36,367 nt of DNA. Origin: Bacillota bacterium. GTDB taxonomy: Bacteria; Bacillota; DTU030. Positions 1,400 through 36,235 of the stretch are shown one piece after another; position 1 is the first letter of the stretch, and every line of letters starts with the position of its first letter. The stretch lies in contig JAAYTH010000044.1 in assembly GCA_012523785.1 (NCBI GenBank), forward strand, positions 1-36,367, read 5' to 3'. Under the pieces are notes generated by a model. That model made no database searches. It had not been told where the DNA came from and saw only the letters and a list, made by a program, of their open reading frames with translations. A program made the translations under genes and the position numbers.

Positions 1400-1434
1400 T
1401 GTACCAAAATCTAAACAATTACATATCAAAACTC

Positions 1435-1550
1435 CCTTCAATCGCTTACGGGGTTAGCTGTCGGGTTAGAGCTAAGGGTGGCTCTTCAAAATGATTCACC
1501 CCAAAATAATTGGTTCCCCCGCTTCTTAAATAAATAAGAATTCAGCACTA
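1435..1550 (-). promoter_or_regulatory. ydaO-type (c-di-AMP) riboswitch, minus strand, upstream of the OpuAC-like gene
   Basis: Minus strand reads GCGGGGGAACCAATTATTTTGGGGTGAATC...CCCGACAGCTAACCCCGTAAGCG, matching recalled ydaO signatures (GCGGGGGA.CCA, GGGGUGAAUC, CCCGACAGCUAAC.CCGUA.GC) in the right order; correctly positioned 5' of the gene. Confidence 0.85.
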
Positions 1551-1738
1551 GTTTCCCAGGTTTGTAAAAACTGGACTCAGGTACGCTGTGGAGTATAACA
1601 TAGGCTTAAATCTATTGCAAAGCCAGCAAACAGGGGCAATAAGTGAAATGAGCGGTCTAGGAAATTACCTAGCCTATTTATATAAACCATTCGGCGAAAT
1701 GATTCCAGATGCTTCTCCATTGTGGGGAAAACATTCAT
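1509..1738. repeat. Direct repeat copy 2
   Basis: See copy 1 at 1-230. Confidence 0.75.
1592..1620 (-). promoter_or_regulatory. SigA-type promoter for riboswitch/OpuAC transcript
   Basis: Minus-strand TTGCAA (1615-1620), 17 nt, TATACT (1592-1597); the same arrangement is conserved in the copy at 85-113. Confidence 0.65.
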
Positions 1739-25587: not shown

Positions 25588-26418
25588 TTACCTATTTCCC
25601 CCGGACCGCCATAGCCACTCATAAAAATCTTCCTTGACCGGAGGGTACAAGATAGCCTCTATATTTTCACGCATTTTAGGGGCAAATTTTCTTTCCTCCA
25701 GTAGGGTTTCTAAAGGTTCTTGTATTTCTTCATGGGGACACTTGCCCAGGTATTCTAGTATTTTCCTTATCCATTGTCTGGTAGTGTTATTGGAGGGAAT
25801 GACATGTAACTCCTCTATCAGTAGGGGGATGACTTCTGCCCTTCGTTCAGGGGTGTCCCGGTGGGCAGCAAGTTCAAGAGCCTTTATTTTTATGTGAACA
25901 TCTTCTATTCTTTCCGGAAGGGGAAGTGCCCGCAGGCAGGAAAACAAAGCCCGATCGGCATCCCTGTTCCCCAAATACATCCGGTGCCCCAACTGTTCAA
26001 GAATACTGTCCCGCTGTTCCCCATCAGCCTGAATAAAATCTTCCAGATCGAATTTAATGGGGGAATATTCCCTTATAATATCCTCGGGTTCCTTGCTCAA
26101 AAAGTCATTGAGTAATTCCTTTCTTTCTCTTTCATCTCTTTTGGCATATTCATGGAACAACTTCCCCACGAAGCTGTCATCTTCTATCTCAATTATTTCC
26201 GCTGGCTCAAACTTTTCACAGGCTTCCCTCTCCCCTAGAAACTTCCTGGTATCAATTATATCCTGGTAGGGGGCGAAGTTGAAATTTTCCAAAATATCGT
26301 CTACAAAGGGTTCCAATACATCATCACTAAGACAAATACCATATTCAGTTGCCTCATTACTGGCTGGGAAATAATAGCCACAATTGAAACAAATCCGTTC
26401 CATTTCCTCCTTGGCCAT
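25588..26418 (-). CDS. HEAT-like repeat protein with N-terminal CxxC segment
   Basis: MAKEEMERICFNCGYYF start with RBS ggaggtg; helical repeats in the C-terminal half. Confidence 0.55.
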   Translation of the reverse strand: MAKEEMERICFNCGYYFPASNEATEYGICLSDDVLEPFVDDILENFNFAPYQDIIDTRKFLGEREACEKFEPAEIIEIEDDSFVGKLFHEYAKRDERERKELLNDFLSKEPEDIIREYSPIKFDLEDFIQADGEQRDSILEQLGHRMYLGNRDADRALFSCLRALPLPERIEDVHIKIKALELAAHRDTPERRAEVIPLLIEELHVIPSNNTTRQWIRKILEYLGKCPHEEIQEPLETLLEERKFAPKMRENIEAILYPPVKEDFYEWLWRSGGNR

Positions 26419-26600
26419 GCTGCACACCTCCCTGTTTATTGGCATATCCTTTTCCAAGGCCGAACCCAGCGGCTACAAAGGCTCAGGCACCACTTCCTCT
26501 CCAATGGATTATTCACTCCAAATTTAAATTCAACCACGGATAAGAAATACCTTTAATTTAAAATTGGAAAGGAGAAAATCCGCAGCCTTCCGAAAGCCAA
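26378..26600. repeat. Duplicated leader region, copy X (upstream of HEAT-like gene)
   Basis: Shares ccacaattgaaacaaatccgttccatttcctcctt, aaatttaaattcaacca and gaaatacctttaattta blocks with 31323-31550. Confidence 0.75.
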
Positions 26601-28805: not shown

Positions 28806-29537
28806 TTAGTAAAGGGTGGCCAACAATTCCGCAAAGTCGGCTATTACCTCTGTCTCCGTATCTCTTTCTTCCGGAATGGATGGTGCCTCTTTTTCCTTTC
28901 TCCCGTCATCCCCCTCATTTTCATCCACATCATAACCATATTTCTTCCATACCTCATACAAGGCCCGGTAGTCCCCTTCCTTAAGCTGTTCCCTTATCCT
29001 TGCCAGCAGAAGCAGCAACGGATCCTTTGTCACAGCGGAGGGAAAATCGGGGGCAAAAATATCGTCCTCCCCGTAATCACCATCATAGCCATAACCGTCA
29101 TACAGGTCCCAATCCTTAAGGGCATATACCCCAAAATCAAGGCAGCAATGAATACCTACAATAACCCTTTCACCATAAATGCTAATATAAACCCCTAACT
29201 CATTTATACCCGTAAATTCATACTGCAAAATTTCCTCCTGCTGCTTGGGCGACAACGGAAAGGCCATGGCCAAAAACCACCAATCATAGCTTTCCGAATA
29301 CATGACATCATAATAATCCTTCATAAGGGGCAGCCAGCCATTAGGGATATCATAACCTTCGGCATGATAAATAAAACTAACCCGGCGATCAGTGGGAACC
29401 GCCCGGCTGGACAATGATGCTACAGCAGCCCGGGCCTCTTTGCCTAGGGGTTGATCCACAGCCAAAAACTCATAAGAAGTTGAACTGTGATCCGAAGCAA
29501 AACCGGTACGAACACTAATTATTTTCAAATTAAACAC
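28806..29537 (-). CDS. Conserved protein of unknown function with FASDHSSTSYEF motif (radical SAM partner)
   Basis: N-terminal RTGFASDHSSTSYEFLA; internal DLYDGYGYDGDYGEDD; 6 nt after the rSAM gene. Confidence 0.55.
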   Translation of the reverse strand: MFNLKIISVRTGFASDHSSTSYEFLAVDQPLGKEARAAVASLSSRAVPTDRRVSFIYHAEGYDIPNGWLPLMKDYYDVMYSESYDWWFLAMAFPLSPKQQEEILQYEFTGINELGVYISIYGERVIVGIHCCLDFGVYALKDWDLYDGYGYDGDYGEDDIFAPDFPSAVTKDPLLLLLARIREQLKEGDYRALYEVWKKYGYDVDENEGDDGRKEKEAPSIPEERDTETEVIADFAELLATLY

Positions 29538-29543
29538 CCCTTC

Positions 29544-31292
29544 TTATAACAGCTCCATTAGTGGATCCCGTCTATCCCCCCCGGGGAGCAGCCAGCGGGG
29601 ATAATCGTGCCCCGGTTCCTCCAGCCAGGTGGAAATCTCCTCTCTAGAAACAAAGGGAGCTCCCCCCGGGGTACAACCGATCAGGTCCTGGATCTCATAG
29701 AGCTGGTAAGTATCAATTTTAATATAATATTCCCTTTCCTTTTCAACTATCACCTTCTTCGGCATCAGCCAATCGGTATTTCTCAATTCCTTGACCGCCC
29801 TCCTCCGTCCAACCCGGAAGTGTTCCATATACTTTTCTATACTGATATAGGAGTTATTTTCAAAATAGGCCCGTAAAGCTGCTTTACGGCCACTAGGCCC
29901 CAAATGCTGCACCCTAGGCAGGAGGGGTTTTCCACAACCCGGATCCTCCCCCAAGGCGTCATGGGCAAAAACCCGGCAGCCTCCACAATGTTCCCGGGCC
30001 AAACAAGTCCCACAATATGTTTCACGAAAGGAAGCCTTTTCCCGAAAAAGGCGATATTTCTTCATTTGCTTGCTGTTCCAAAGGGTGTGGCAATCTTCAC
30101 TGATAATATGTCCAGCCCTAAATCTGGTATCCATAAGCTGGGAACAAGGATAAGCAAAGCCATCGGCGGCCAGGGCCAACACCCGGCTAGCGGCAACACA
30201 GCCCCGCAGGCCAGCCGCCAGGGCCCCTTGCGGTTTTAGATCCCGCTGTAGGAAACTTAGGGCACAGTCCAGCCGGAGCTCAATATGGGGGTAGATCATT
30301 TTTATCCGGGGCAATACAGCAGCAACCCTTGTATAGGCCTGGGGAGAAGAGCTTTCTGCTAGCCAGCGGTCAAGATCAGAAGGAGGTTTATAGCGTAGCA
30401 GAATGATCCGCTTAAAGCCAACTTCAACCAAGGCCCTCATAATCTGGCCAAAATGTTTCAGGACTGTATTGCAAAGAATCAAGTTGGCCCCTATCCTTAG
30501 CCCCATTGCTTCTGCGGCATCTACCACCCGCCCCAAGGATACCATCTCCCCCCGGGTATCCTCCAGAAGGCGGTCGTGTTTGATGCCGATGTGCAATGAT
30601 TTCACCGCCGGAGCCAGCCGCTCAAGGAGTTTAATATCCAGGTCTGCAATTAAACCGGTGGTAATATGCACAACCAAGCCGCTGTCCTTGGCCGCCTTGA
30701 CCAGGAGGGGAAGATCAGGCCGCAGCAATGGCTCCCCACCACCCAAGGCCAGTTGAAAAACCCCCCAGCGGGCCAGTTTTTCAATAACCCGCAGCGCACC
30801 GGCGGTATTAAGTTCCTTAACCCCCTGATCACTATAGCGCCGGGCATAACAATCAGGGCAGTTCTGATTACAGGCAAAGGTTATGGCCCAATGGACTGTT
30901 TCCGGCGCAGAAAGATGGTACTTTCCCGGTGAAGGCCGGGCCTTCGCTGGCTGGAATAAGCATGCTTGGTCAATAAGGCTATCCTCCGGAAAGCTATTGA
31001 CCAAGCCCAAATCAACTAGCTTCTGTAAAACTGCAATAGTGTCAGCCCGCAGTTTAGATACGGATTTCTCCCCTTCCCCCTTTTTAGCCAGAACCGTTAG
31101 CAGATCATTCAAGCCCACAGCCTGTTTTTCCTTCAGATGGGAAAGCAAGGAAAATGCCCCTTTACCAAGATCCACCACCATACCATTGCCCCGGTGGAAG
31201 GCAATCCCACCCCACAACTCTTCCCGCAAACGGATCCCCTCTGCCAGATGGACCTTTACTTTCTCCACCGCTTCGTCATCTGTATAATTCAT
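29544..31292 (-). CDS. Radical SAM/SPASM protein with PqqD-like N-terminus and C-terminal HTH-like extension
   Basis: FACNQNCPDCYARRY; LALGGGEPLLRPDL; Cys-rich SPASM-like YCGTCLAREHCGGC; start re-assigned to MNYTDDEAVEK with RBS AAGGAAG. Confidence 0.78.
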   Translation of the reverse strand: MNYTDDEAVEKVKVHLAEGIRLREELWGGIAFHRGNGMVVDLGKGAFSLLSHLKEKQAVGLNDLLTVLAKKGEGEKSVSKLRADTIAVLQKLVDLGLVNSFPEDSLIDQACLFQPAKARPSPGKYHLSAPETVHWAITFACNQNCPDCYARRYSDQGVKELNTAGALRVIEKLARWGVFQLALGGGEPLLRPDLPLLVKAAKDSGLVVHITTGLIADLDIKLLERLAPAVKSLHIGIKHDRLLEDTRGEMVSLGRVVDAAEAMGLRIGANLILCNTVLKHFGQIMRALVEVGFKRIILLRYKPPSDLDRWLAESSSPQAYTRVAAVLPRIKMIYPHIELRLDCALSFLQRDLKPQGALAAGLRGCVAASRVLALAADGFAYPCSQLMDTRFRAGHIISEDCHTLWNSKQMKKYRLFREKASFRETYCGTCLAREHCGGCRVFAHDALGEDPGCGKPLLPRVQHLGPSGRKAALRAYFENNSYISIEKYMEHFRVGRRRAVKELRNTDWLMPKKVIVEKEREYYIKIDTYQLYEIQDLIGCTPGGAPFVSREEISTWLEEPGHDYPRWLLPGGDRRDPLMELL

Positions 31293-31363
31293 ACAAACAC
31301 TTCCTTCTGGCTGCCGCTTATCCCACAATTGAAACAAATCCGTTCCATTTCCTCCTTTGTCAT
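31289..31363 (-). CDS. 24-aa ORF MTKEEMERICFNCGISGSQKEVFV overlapping the rSAM start (ATGA): leader-peptide remnant or small peptide
   Basis: Near-identical to the N-terminus of the HEAT-like protein at 26418; translationally coupled overlap. Confidence 0.4.
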   Translation of the reverse strand: MTKEEMERICFNCGISGSQKEVFV

Positions 31364-31550
31364 ACTGCACACCCCCCGTATGGTCGGCCAATCTCTTTTC
31401 TAAATTGAACTTAGCAGTTGCGCGGGTTCAAGCACCGTTTCCCCTCCACGGGATGATCCAATTCAAATTTAAATTCAACCATAGTTAGGAAATACCTTTA
31501 ATTTAAATTGGAAGGGAGGAAAATCTGCTGCCTTTCGGAAGCCAAGGCCA
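31323..31550. repeat. Duplicated leader region, copy Y (upstream of radical SAM gene)
   Basis: See copy X. Confidence 0.75.
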
Positions 31551-31784: not shown

Positions 31785-34295
31785 ATGAGTATTACAACTG
31801 CACAAATCGCAAAGAGATTATCAATTTCACCGCAAGAGGCAATGAGGCTGCTGCAAAAATATGGGATTGAGGTGACGGATGTCAATGCAGTGCTGGACAA
31901 ATCGGATTTGCAGAAAATAAGACATGCCATCCAGAAGATTAAAAAACAAGATCGTAAAAGAACAACTCCTTCTTTAGCTGAAAAGGCCCGCAAGGATTTG
32001 AGGCACTGCCTTACACACTACAAGGTTTTTATTGATACCTGCAGCCTACTAAATGATACTGCGGCTCAATTTTGGAGTAATGCTGTGCCATTGCTTGAGG
32101 AAACAGGAAATAAGATAATTATTACTACTAAGGTTGTTGAAGAACTGGAAAAACATTACCGAAACCAAAACAATCCCCCCCTAGCCAAAAAAGCGGCCAC
32201 AGCATTGGAATATATCAATGTGTTACTGAAAAGCCAATTAGTTGTCATCCAAGGGGAACAAAGCGATGTTTTTGCTGATAATGTTTTTCAGGTAGTTTTC
32301 ACTAAATTTAGAATGACGGAGAGACTGCTGCTTATTACCCAAGACCAGGATCTGGCTACAGATATTCTAAACCTCAACAATAATAAATCGGTTAGAGCCA
32401 ATAGGGTATATGTAAAAAGGATCAATCAATTTGGTTACCTTAGCTATTTTTCCCTTAAAAAGAGAAAAGCCGAACTAGCACCTAGACTTCGGGCGGAGGA
32501 AAAGTTTTCTTTAAGTAAGAATTTAACAACCATACCCGCCGAGCTACTCATAACTGCCAAGATTCCCACTGAAGGCGAGGTGGTATATGCTCGACACGAA
32601 ACCCAAGAGGGCCCAGTCCAATTGCTGGAGGAAATGGCTTCCGGTGGTGAAGGAAGAATATTTACAACTAATACCCCCTACCTGGCCAAGATTTATAAAG
32701 AAGGGAAGTTAAGCCAAAGGAAATACGAAAAAATAAAATTGATGCTGAGCAAGAAAATTAACTGTACGGGTATTTGCTATCCTCAGGCCTGTTTATATAA
32801 TAAAGACAAGCAGTTTGTTGGATATTTGATGCCCCGGGCCCAGGGAAAGGAACTACAAAAATGCCTTTTTATCAAGCCCCTGCTCTTCAAAAACTTCCCC
32901 CATTGGAAAAAACGGGATACAGTAGAGCTCTGTATAACCATTCTGGAAAAAATAAAGTATTTACATAGCCGCAACATTATCATTGGAGATATAAACCCGG
33001 CCAATATCCTCCTAGTTTCCCCAACCGAAGTTTATTTTGTTGATACAGACAGTTATCAAATTGAAGGTTTCCCCTGCCCCGTCGGTACAATAAATTACAC
33101 CGCTCCCGAAATACAAAGAAAGACCTTTGCCACTTTTTTAAGATCATACGGCAATGAGTATTTCGCCGTAGCCACCCTGCTCTTTATGATCATGCTGCCG
33201 GGAAAACCACCCTATTCCCAGCAAGGTGGGGAAAACCCCATTGATAATATAATCAAAATGGACTTCTCATACCCCCTGGGGGATCTCTCCAATAAAAAAA
33301 CCCCCGACGGCCCCTGGCGGTTTATCTGGAGCCATTTACCCTTTGACATTAAGAGTGGATTCTATCACACATTCCGAAGGGGTGGTGATTATAGCACAGA
33401 AAATAATCGGCTAAATGTCGAGAAATGGCTGAACATGTTCCAGTACTACTTACAATTGCTTGATAGCGGCAAGTACGGTATGCGGGACAAAATGTCGGAA
33501 GACCTGTTTCCGACCCGGTACCAGAGACATCCCGATGTCACCTATGCTCGCTGCAAGTTATGTGGAAAAGAGGTCCCCGCAAATACATGCCGGGAAGGCA
33601 TCTGCCCCGATTGTCTAAATACTGGAGAGGTCCATCATTGTAGGCGCTGTGGCAAAGAAATACTTTTTACCAATTACCAAAAATATATTAGAAGGGTAAA
33701 ACCCCACAGCCTATGCCCGGAATGTTATTCCCATGGCAAAAAAGTCTATGCCAGGGTAAGATGCATAAACTGTGGGAGGTATTTTCAAATTACCAATAGT
33801 GAGTATGAATATTTTCGTTCCAAAAATTTACACCTTCCCAAACGATGTAAACAATGCCGCAAGCTCGCCAACAGGACATATTCACCACCCAGAAGAACAT
33901 ATCCCACACCGACCAGGAGAACACCAACAGGGCCTGGCAAAGGTTCCTTGTGCTTTCTTACCACAGCCATATGTAACTACTTGCAAAAAGAAGACAATTG
34001 TTATGAGCTGACAATCCTAAGAAAATTTAGGGATGACTGGCTGCAAAAACAGCCAGGGGGACATCGCTTAATCACAGAATACTATTTTATAGCACCGGAT
34101 ATCGTATGTACATTGGCAGCTTCTCCGTCAAAAGACAAGATCTATAATAGGCTCTGGCGAAGGTACATCAAACCCTGTGTGGCCTATATTGAAACCGGAG
34201 AATTCACTGCCTGTAAGAAAAAGTATATGGCCATGGTTAGATATCTAGAGAGGGTTTTGCCAATAAAAGAAAGGTGGAATAAATATGCAAGATAA
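31785..34295 (+). CDS. Multidomain protein: IF2N-like HTH, PIN-like nuclease, serine/threonine kinase-like domain, zinc ribbons, CFI-box C-terminus
   Basis: ITTAQIAKRLSISPQEAMRLLQKYGIEV; VFIDTCSLLND..TTKVVEELEKH..LLLITQDQDLATDIL; LHSRNIIIGDINPANILL...VYFVDTDSY, APEI; multiple CxxC pairs; CFLTTAICNYLQKEDNCYELTILRKFRDDWL. Confidence 0.78.
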   Translation: MSITTAQIAKRLSISPQEAMRLLQKYGIEVTDVNAVLDKSDLQKIRHAIQKIKKQDRKRTTPSLAEKARKDLRHCLTHYKVFIDTCSLLNDTAAQFWSNAVPLLEETGNKIIITTKVVEELEKHYRNQNNPPLAKKAATALEYINVLLKSQLVVIQGEQSDVFADNVFQVVFTKFRMTERLLLITQDQDLATDILNLNNNKSVRANRVYVKRINQFGYLSYFSLKKRKAELAPRLRAEEKFSLSKNLTTIPAELLITAKIPTEGEVVYARHETQEGPVQLLEEMASGGEGRIFTTNTPYLAKIYKEGKLSQRKYEKIKLMLSKKINCTGICYPQACLYNKDKQFVGYLMPRAQGKELQKCLFIKPLLFKNFPHWKKRDTVELCITILEKIKYLHSRNIIIGDINPANILLVSPTEVYFVDTDSYQIEGFPCPVGTINYTAPEIQRKTFATFLRSYGNEYFAVATLLFMIMLPGKPPYSQQGGENPIDNIIKMDFSYPLGDLSNKKTPDGPWRFIWSHLPFDIKSGFYHTFRRGGDYSTENNRLNVEKWLNMFQYYLQLLDSGKYGMRDKMSEDLFPTRYQRHPDVTYARCKLCGKEVPANTCREGICPDCLNTGEVHHCRRCGKEILFTNYQKYIRRVKPHSLCPECYSHGKKVYARVRCINCGRYFQITNSEYEYFRSKNLHLPKRCKQCRKLANRTYSPPRRTYPTPTRRTPTGPGKGSLCFLTTAICNYLQKEDNCYELTILRKFRDDWLQKQPGGHRLITEYYFIAPDIVCTLAASPSKDKIYNRLWRRYIKPCVAYIETGEFTACKKKYMAMVRYLERVLPIKERWNKYAR

Positions 34296-34971
34296 CTTGT
34301 TAGTAAGGCTGGAGGATTTAGTCAATAACCCAACTCCCCGAGTACCTGTTTGCCTATGCTTAGATACCAGTGGCTCTATGCAGGGTAAGCCCATTGATGA
34401 ACTCAATGAAGGGGTCAAGATGTTTTATAAGGCCATCCGTGAGGATGAAACCGCAATGTATTCGGCGGAAATTAGCATTGTCACTTTTGGCGGGACTGCA
34501 GAACTAATCGCAGATTTTGCCAACATTGATAGGCAGTCTGAACCAACTCTAACGGCCAGTGGCACAACTCCCATGGGGGAAGCAGTAAACATGGCTCTAG
34601 ACTGTTTGGAAAAAAGAAAGGAAGAATATAAGGATAAGGGCGTGGATTATTACCAACCATGGCTGGTACTGATGACTGACGGTGCACCCTACGGCGGTTC
34701 CGCCGATGAAGTTACCCGTGCCATTTCCAGAACAGTTGAAATGGCCCAAAACAAAAAACTAACCGTGTTTCCCATTGGAATTGGTAGTGGTGCAGACATG
34801 AAGGTATTAGAACAATTCTCCCCCCAAAGGGAACCCCTCAGGCTGCAGGGTCTTAAATTCCGGGAGCTCTTCGCTTGGCTAAGTGAGAGTATTTCAAGAA
34901 CATCCCAATCGACACCCGGTGAAAGGGTTGAACTGAATGTGGAGGGTATTAAGGGTTGGGCCGAGATATAA
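34285..34971 (+). CDS. TerY-like von Willebrand factor A domain protein
   Basis: MIDAS CLDTSGSM, SGTTPMGEA, LMTDGAPYGG. Confidence 0.9.
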   Translation: MQDNLLVRLEDLVNNPTPRVPVCLCLDTSGSMQGKPIDELNEGVKMFYKAIREDETAMYSAEISIVTFGGTAELIADFANIDRQSEPTLTASGTTPMGEAVNMALDCLEKRKEEYKDKGVDYYQPWLVLMTDGAPYGGSADEVTRAISRTVEMAQNKKLTVFPIGIGSGADMKVLEQFSPQREPLRLQGLKFRELFAWLSESISRTSQSTPGERVELNVEGIKGWAEI

Positions 34972-35117
34972 AGGCAAAGTAACTACTCGGCTGCACCTAC
35001 AAACCCTGTCTTGTCGGCTTTCCCGATACATCCCAAAACATCTTGCTTGTCACCCCGCCCGTCCAGAGCCCAGCGGAGGGAGGCCAGTGGCCCAAGGATC
35101 TCTGCAGTCTAATGCCT

Positions 35118-35168
35118 AGGATCCTTCGCTTGGCTTAGGATGACACTATGAGTTGCTGCTGAATAGTT
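35118..35168. repeat. Family B extragenic repeat copy 1
   Basis: aggatccttcgcttggcttaggatgacactatgagttgctgctgaatagtt. Confidence 0.65.
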
Positions 35169-35224
35169 GCAAGACAAAAATTCTTTCTAAAGGGATATAA
35201 ATAATTCCCCGGCTCAAAAACTAG

Positions 35225-36235
35225 ATGGGATTGATGAATATGTGGAAATCAATTAATTATGAGGTGTGTGGGAGAAGTCATAGCCAATCTTCCACCCCCT
35301 GCCAAGACAAAACCAAAGCCTGCACTATCAACGCTGTTAAAATAATTGCCTTGGCCGATGGCGCCGGCTCACAGCCGCTATCCCATTTTGGTGCAGCAGT
35401 TGTCACCGATTCAATATGCCAATATTTAGCCCAACATTTCGACCGGCTGCTGGGGGACCCCGATGGAAAACAAGCCAAAAAAGATATTTTAGCCCACTTG
35501 CTGGGCCGACTCAGGGTTAAAAGTGAGAAGCTTTCCTGTAATATCCGGGAATTAGCCTCTACCTTATTGGCGGTAGCAGTAAAGGGGAATATGTTCCTTA
35601 TGCTCCATATTGGCGATGGAGTTATCGGCTGCCTAAAAAATAAGGAACTTAAGGTTGTATCGGACCCGGAAAATGGAGAATTCGCCAACACTACCAGCTT
35701 TGTTACTTCAAGGGAAGCCATCTATGTAATGAAGCTTTTTAAGGGGTCAACAACCGATATAGCCGGTTTTGTCCTGATGTCAGATGGAACAGCCGAAAGT
35801 CTATATCATAAAAAGCATAATAAATTTGCCCATGTTTTATTTAAGCTAATGCATAGAACAGCGATTCTAGATTCTGATAAAATGTATGAATTCATTAAAG
35901 AAAGTTTTGACCGGGTTCTGGTTTTAAATACCCAGGATGATTGCAGTATCGCGTTGCTGTGCCGCCAGAAGGGGCCCTTGTGTAAATATGCCGATATGAC
36001 CCTGGGGCAAAAATGTGACTTGTTAAATATCACAGCCTACGACCGGGCTGCCAAAAGAAGGGTAAAACGTTTTGATGATATTATGTACTATTTGGAAGAG
36101 GGGAAAACATTAAAGCAATTGTCTAAACTATTGTACCTAAAGGAGAAATATACCCGCCGTCATTTAAAACGGCTCGAAGGGCTTGGCCTGGTATCAAGGA
36201 AGGGAAAAACCTATTCTAAAATCGTAACTGCTTAA
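35225..36235 (+). CDS. PP2C-like phosphatase with C-terminal helix-turn-helix
   Basis: CQDKTKAC..ALADGAGSQPLSHFGAAVVTD; ASTLLAVAVKGNMFLMLHIGDGVIG; FVLMSDGTAESL; NTQDDCSIALL; C-terminal TLKQLSKLLYLKEKYTRRHLKRLEGLGLVSRKGKTY. Confidence 0.82.
   Translation: MGLMNMWKSINYEVCGRSHSQSSTPCQDKTKACTINAVKIIALADGAGSQPLSHFGAAVVTDSICQYLAQHFDRLLGDPDGKQAKKDILAHLLGRLRVKSEKLSCNIRELASTLLAVAVKGNMFLMLHIGDGVIGCLKNKELKVVSDPENGEFANTTSFVTSREAIYVMKLFKGSTTDIAGFVLMSDGTAESLYHKKHNKFAHVLFKLMHRTAILDSDKMYEFIKESFDRVLVLNTQDDCSIALLCRQKGPLCKYADMTLGQKCDLLNITAYDRAAKRRVKRFDDIMYYLEEGKTLKQLSKLLYLKEKYTRRHLKRLEGLGLVSRKGKTYSKIVTA

Follow-up and report, generated by a model that had tools for sequence, protein, structure and literature searches.

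The window analysed here, a stretch of 36,367 nucleotides from a Bacillota bacterium, carries on its minus strand two open reading frames (29544-31391 and 28806-29537) that the initial annotation had read as a radical SAM/SPASM enzyme and a partner protein, possibly its substrate. Both reading frames are real, but the end coordinate given to the unit, 31363, belongs to an ATG that is out of the enzyme frame and opens a 24-aa ORF, MTKEEMERICFNCGISGSQKEVFV (31289..31363, minus strand), which shares an ATGA overlap with the start of the enzyme. The most likely start codon of the enzyme itself is ATG 31292, giving a protein of 582 aa (29544..31292, minus strand) with Pfam Radical_SAM and SPASM domains, a putative PqqD-like (RRE-like) N-terminal domain and a C-terminal extension. 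For the partner, a length of 243 aa and a gap of 6 nt had been derived from an upstream GTG. Since every homologue with an intact N-terminus opens with M/V-K/R-I/V-I-S, and since an AGAAGG-like ribosome site fits TTG 29528, the start is probably this TTG instead. The candidate substrate, delineated by alignment A1 and by its co-occurrence and adjacency with the enzyme, would then be a protein of 240 aa (28806..29528, minus strand) separated from the enzyme by 15 nt.

The enzyme is a member of the radical SAM superfamily: the CxxxCxxC motif (C141/C145/C148) and GGGEP are invariant in eight members of the subfamily, and Pfam identifies the domain with an E-value of 3.7e-12. It is also a SPASM-domain protein, with seven cysteines (C365, C383, C427, C430, C436, C439 and C453) invariant in the same members and a Pfam SPASM match in all eight (6e-7 for the window enzyme). 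Both of the window enzyme's matches exceed the curated cut-offs and confirm the identity first assigned to it. The PqqD-like N-terminus that had been proposed is supported indirectly: residues 1-111 are matched by MftB in all eight members (best E 2.5e-5) and by PqqD_rel_X in three (best E 3.3e-5), and the best PDB match of the region is SuiB (E 0.013), but the window enzyme scores below the curated cut-offs of both models. Pfam PqqD itself does not match this domain.

Comparison with characterised enzymes places the protein among known types while setting it apart from each of them. The best solved match of the core and SPASM domain is PqqE (PDB 6c8v, E 4.8e-18), which works with a separate PqqD recognition protein, whereas here the PqqD-like domain is fused to the enzyme; the PqqE model scores 62 bits against a cut-off of 381, and there is no PqqA-like peptide. 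With the streptide synthase SuiB (PDB 5v1q) the family profile aligns from the PqqD-like N-terminus through the core and SPASM domain (E 4.7e-16), but SuiB acts on a short precursor peptide and the candidate substrate here is a protein of about 240 aa. None of the equivalogs among the 25 best NCBIfam families listed reaches its cut-off. The best match of the window enzyme, the radical SAM/SPASM maturase of GDL-motif peptides (TIGR03913), gives 79 bits, far below its cut-off of 592, and has another partner, while a KxxxW-type maturase model matches weakly in one member and in the N-terminal domain only (E 0.041). An AlphaFold model of the enzyme, built from two sequences, is poor (pLDDT 40.6). 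In these comparisons neither the enzyme subfamily nor the partner nor their pairing corresponds to a named family, although the type of enzyme, which usually introduces cross-links into peptides, and its logic are already known.

Co-occurrence of the two genes was assessed in 399 Bacillota genomes with a profile of the enzyme (A2, threshold E<=1e-40) and one of the partner (A1). The enzyme subfamily is matched in exactly eight genomes, and the partner profile finds the same eight together with decayed fragments in two more (G307 and G309) and a distant relative from a broader family in a third (G373). We estimate the chance of picking the same 8 of 399 at about 1 in 10^16, a figure that assumes independent genomes, which these are not. 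The genes adjoin on the same strand in seven of the eight; in the remaining one (G074) the enzyme reaches the end of a contig and the contig of the partner opens with the enzyme C-terminus just upstream of it, a split by assembly that is consistent with adjacency across the contig break. A ninth pair (L001) comes from another collection. Intergenic gaps range from -20 to +103 nt, and the pairwise distances of enzyme and partner are correlated (r=0.70, a value equalled or exceeded in 158 of 40320 permutations), the pairs with an intact-looking enzyme numbering only nine.

The eight genomes represent eight families. The pair is missing from the other genomes sampled in the genus and family to which the window belongs, and it is therefore a patchy, accessory unit. 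Plasmids searched with the window partner and viral contigs searched with the partner profile gave no relatives, Rfam gave no RNA near the pair, and in the neighbourhoods read no third gene lies constantly beside it, the upstream neighbours being variable. Enzyme and partner constitute a genuine, conserved and nearly contiguous same-strand two-gene unit in scattered Bacillota. Homologues of the two genes are thus neighbours elsewhere as well, not separated, as the initial annotation had reasoned they might be if its proposal were wrong; because of this an enzyme-substrate pair is our leading reading, though not a proven one.

What the partner is can be approached through its conservation. Intact partners measure 213-257 aa and belong to no Pfam or NCBIfam family; a search of solved structures with the partner profile gave nothing significant (best E 0.31), and an AlphaFold model from three sequences is poor (pLDDT 38.9). 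The best-conserved part is residues 1-21 (mean 0.89, against 0.46-0.79 elsewhere), the N-terminal extension MKIISVRTGFASDHSSTSYEF (29466..29528, minus strand), which is near-invariant in enzyme-linked partners as MKIISxRxGFxxDHSSTSYEF and may hold both a recognition strand and a modification motif. In homologues with no radical SAM gene beside them, residues 3-18 are either missing or of another sequence. The N-terminal FASDHSSTSYEF to which attention had been drawn is present and, because it is nearly invariant across the partner family, reflects more than chance. A second branch-specific invariant block is the aromatic YDVMYSESYDWW at residues 73-84 (29277..29312, minus strand), in which Y73, D74, M76, Y77, E79, Y81, W83 and W84 are invariant in ten members. 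The compositionally odd DLYDGYGYDGDYGEDD is likewise present, but it lost its claim to be a special feature: it sits in a variable acidic linker (residues ~131-168; 29025..29138, minus strand) with the lowest conservation in the protein, 0.46, and this acidic DYG stretch is unlikely to be the target of a modification. No cysteine is conserved in all partners (L019 has a valine in place of C128), which makes Cys-based cross-links unlikely.

The N-terminus had also been likened to the FVTNSSSSSF starts of many clostridial proteins. We could not corroborate this resemblance: a degenerate DNA pattern for the string occurs in 9 of the 399 genomes, which is not above the reversed control in a test of low power (other codons, other clades), and the clostridial genomes to which the comparison referred may not be among those sampled. 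The matches that were read are not protein N-termini, a single viral match lies inside a protein of 1758 aa, and the string found no mention in the literature searched.

Although no database entry covers the partner, its ancestry is not wholly unknown, as had been supposed. Profile-profile comparison joins residues ~18-238 to a broad 'MSEYQYYEFQALDRPL' family (hhalign probability 99.4%, E 9.4e-22, 181 columns), and on this sequence evidence the partner is a branch of that unnamed family, which is found in Actinomycetota, Cyanobacteriota, Pseudomonadota and Bacteroidota. The two differ in several places. Where the enzyme-linked branch has MKIISxRxGFxxDHSS, the broad family has MSEYQ; at the place of the aromatic block it has FDAxLYxANWGTRR, so that the residues of SESYDWW are absent, among them E79, Y81, W83 and W84. 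The acidic linker is longer in the enzyme-linked branch. Most members of the broad family carry an extra C-terminal module, and among the records that carry annotation, none shows a radical SAM gene near a broad-family member. Phages searched with a broad-family protein gave no match.

The distant relative in G373, a single Bacillota genome, is longer than the partner and starts with EYQYYEFQSLDRRLS. Its homologues lie on plasmids of Streptomyces, Rhodococcus, Nonomuraea, Sinorhizobium, Paraburkholderia, Acinetobacter, Nostoc, Trichormus and Haliscomenobacter, annotated as hypothetical proteins. More generally, hypothetical proteins of about 370-400 aa with a 'MSEYQYYEFQALDRPL' start and no Pfam or NCBIfam entry are widespread (L033 7558-9057; L043-L048, L066, L068 and L069). 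The C-terminal module of the family also scores in other Bacillota proteins, some of which carry a CxCPxGxxCxH signature like that of SWIM zinc fingers.

Following up on these observations, we favour a scheme, to which we assign a probability of a little under 0.6, in which the PqqD-like domain of the enzyme binds the partner, the enzyme modifies the conserved motif at the N-terminus, and the partner stays full-length. The PqqD-like domain would capture the partner, probably via the N-terminal segment MKIISxR, and the radical SAM/SPASM core would then use a 5'-deoxyadenosyl radical and two auxiliary Fe-S clusters on the near-invariant GFxxDHSSTSYEF motif or, less likely, on the YSESYDWW block. 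The modification might for instance be an intramolecular cross-link, as in SuiB and PqqE. SuiB forms a Lys-Trp cross-link in its peptide and PqqE a Glu-Tyr cross-link. The active product would be the modified protein itself, with its broad-family body of about 200 residues, and would require neither leader cleavage nor export. The analysis shows the co-occurrence and adjacency of the genes, the catalytic residues and the branch-specific conservation; the role of the partner as substrate, the site, the chemistry and the biological role are inferred. In favour of the scheme are, besides co-occurrence and adjacency, the correlated distances of the two proteins, the loss of the partner's N-terminus where the enzyme is lost or broken, the resemblance of the enzyme's N-terminal domain to PqqD and MftB, and the lack of a constant third gene. 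What sets enzyme-linked partners apart from the broad family is mainly the N-terminal extension and the aromatic block, and the nearest solved enzymes, PqqE and SuiB, both modify peptides. Against it counts that the substrates of SPASM/RRE enzymes are usually short precursors and the candidate partner is domain-sized; the conserved N-terminal motif could also be a docking surface rather than the site of modification.

A more ambitious form of the same scheme is conceivable, although the odds are against it. A SPASM enzyme with a PqqD-like domain might make a permanent change to the N-terminal tail of a non-RiPP protein the size of a domain and thereby switch a widespread fold to a new functional state, for example by forming a cross-link or cofactor from the protein itself, as part of a mobile module associated with defence. 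If the enzyme-substrate reading is true, RRE-SPASM machinery, known mainly from short peptides, would be extended to a protein-sized substrate. Enzyme and 21-residue motif would also offer a first experimental handle on a family that occurs in at least five bacterial phyla and has no Pfam or NCBIfam entry.

The main rival, which we judge unlikely but serious, assigns the partner the part of an accessory, scaffold or carrier subunit, comparable to PqqD for PqqE, with the true substrate (a peptide, a protein or a small molecule) encoded elsewhere. The size of the partner would suit such a subunit, as would the constant presence of the whole unit, and the lack of annotated radical SAM neighbours in the broad family implies a basic function that needs no modification. 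Yet the enzyme has its own PqqD-like domain, which would make a separate recognition protein unnecessary, the pair has no further conserved small ORF or gene beside it, and the branch-specific conservation is placed in a short N-terminal tail, as expected of a modified segment.

We regard it as distinctly less probable that the partner serves as a conventional RiPP precursor, from one end of which, N- or C-terminal, a short piece would be modified, cleaved off and exported. An RRE-like and SPASM enzyme beside a candidate substrate, with SuiB and PqqE as nearest solved relatives, speaks for this reading, but the partner, at 213-257 aa and with a conserved broad-family body, shows no hypervariable core and is not a short precursor with a leader and a variable core. 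Nor does a constant protease or exporter stand beside the pair in the neighbourhoods read. The FxSxx peptide/SPASM radical SAM systems, known from actinobacterial conflict operons (PMC7159879), likewise combine a SPASM radical SAM enzyme with an F-x-S-motif protein in a conflict-system setting; there, however, the motif belongs to a peptide at the C-terminus that a metallopeptidase cleaves, while in the partner it is N-terminal. Its serine is moreover replaced by alanine in 3 of 9 members, and no FxSxx-type metallopeptidase was seen.

Two further alternatives can be set aside. That the enzyme is viperin-like and antiviral and acts on nucleotides, the partner being a regulator, was suggested by PADLOC pVip models that match the enzyme core (E 5.7e-13) and by several loci near restriction or toxin-antitoxin genes; we consider it very improbable and reject it, since the match covers the generic radical SAM core only, the seven-cysteine SPASM and PqqD-like domains are features of peptide-modifying enzymes, and the viperin model of NCBIfam gives 43 bits where its cut-off is 180. 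The 24-aa ORF, which contains a CxxC besides overlapping the enzyme start, is scarcely credible as the real substrate peptide: it duplicates, in truncated form, the 5' end of another gene of the window (25588-26457), the duplication spanning ~158 bp at 77.5% identity (31323-31480 and 26378-26535) and comprising the upstream region and first codons of that gene, now also found upstream of the radical SAM gene, and in L001 and L015 a full-length SEC-C protein fills the same slot and overlaps the enzyme start.

Decayed and disrupted loci bear on the enzyme-substrate reading in both directions. In four remnants (G307, G309, G412 and L002) the N-terminus of the partner is missing, and in the first three the enzyme is lost or broken as well: a deletion in G412 fuses the C-terminal part of the enzyme to partner residue ~52, and just broken pieces of enzyme and partner are left in G309. 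In L002 the partner has lost its start close to a reading frame on the opposite strand. The argument from joint decay is weakened because any deletion of the 3' end of the enzyme gene automatically puts the start of the partner gene at risk. In G009 an MNT/HEPN module cuts the partner ORF to 151 aa while the enzyme is intact, which counts against an enzyme-substrate pair. The interrupting module, of the MNT/HEPN nucleotidyltransferase type, lies at L018 8918-9981; in G307, which belongs to the same genus, what survives of the partner is a C-terminal piece that likewise adjoins an MNT/HEPN module (L020 10225-10765).

The surroundings of the pair contain hints that it sits in genomic islands with defence genes, in that restriction or toxin-antitoxin neighbours occur in several loci. 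A type III restriction subunit, together with its methylase, lies 14 nt upstream of the pair in G012; GmrSD accompanies the MNT/HEPN module in G009, and McrB-like and PD-(D/E)XK proteins are neighbours in G300. No neighbours of the restriction or toxin-antitoxin type were noticed in G356. An accessory role in such islands is our secondary guess.

In the window itself the genes running divergently from the pair encode a kinase-PIN protein, a VWA protein and a PP2C phosphatase. This three-gene set (31785-36235, plus strand) resembles TerY-type kinase/VWA/phosphatase triads; its 836-aa protein combines IF2_N-like, PIN-like, protein-kinase, zinc-finger-like and CFI-box C-terminal parts, and the phosphatase carries a C-terminal HTH. 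At the other end of the window a c-di-AMP riboswitch (1427-1557, minus strand, 88.7 bits) lies upstream of a substrate-binding protein gene (312-1316).

A TPR-like protein stands upstream of the pair in G009. Members of about 550 aa with 41-49% identity occur at L018 11645-13300, L016 7040-8749, L073 2544-4250 and L084 8078-9769, adjoining the pair in G009 and G012 and placed elsewhere in the G074 assembly. As a third component the protein was rejected, being absent from the genome of the window and from most others, and a C-terminus shared between it and the broad family is poorly supported (hhalign E 0.012, probability 3.5%). In G032, which has no pair, it lies downstream of a short SWIM-like ORF. 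G080 encodes two CxxCxxCC-type proteins (L015 12981-13655 and L074 8363-10545): one, with SEC-C, overlaps the radical SAM start, and the other lies 5 nt before a distant relative of the TPR-like protein elsewhere in the genome.
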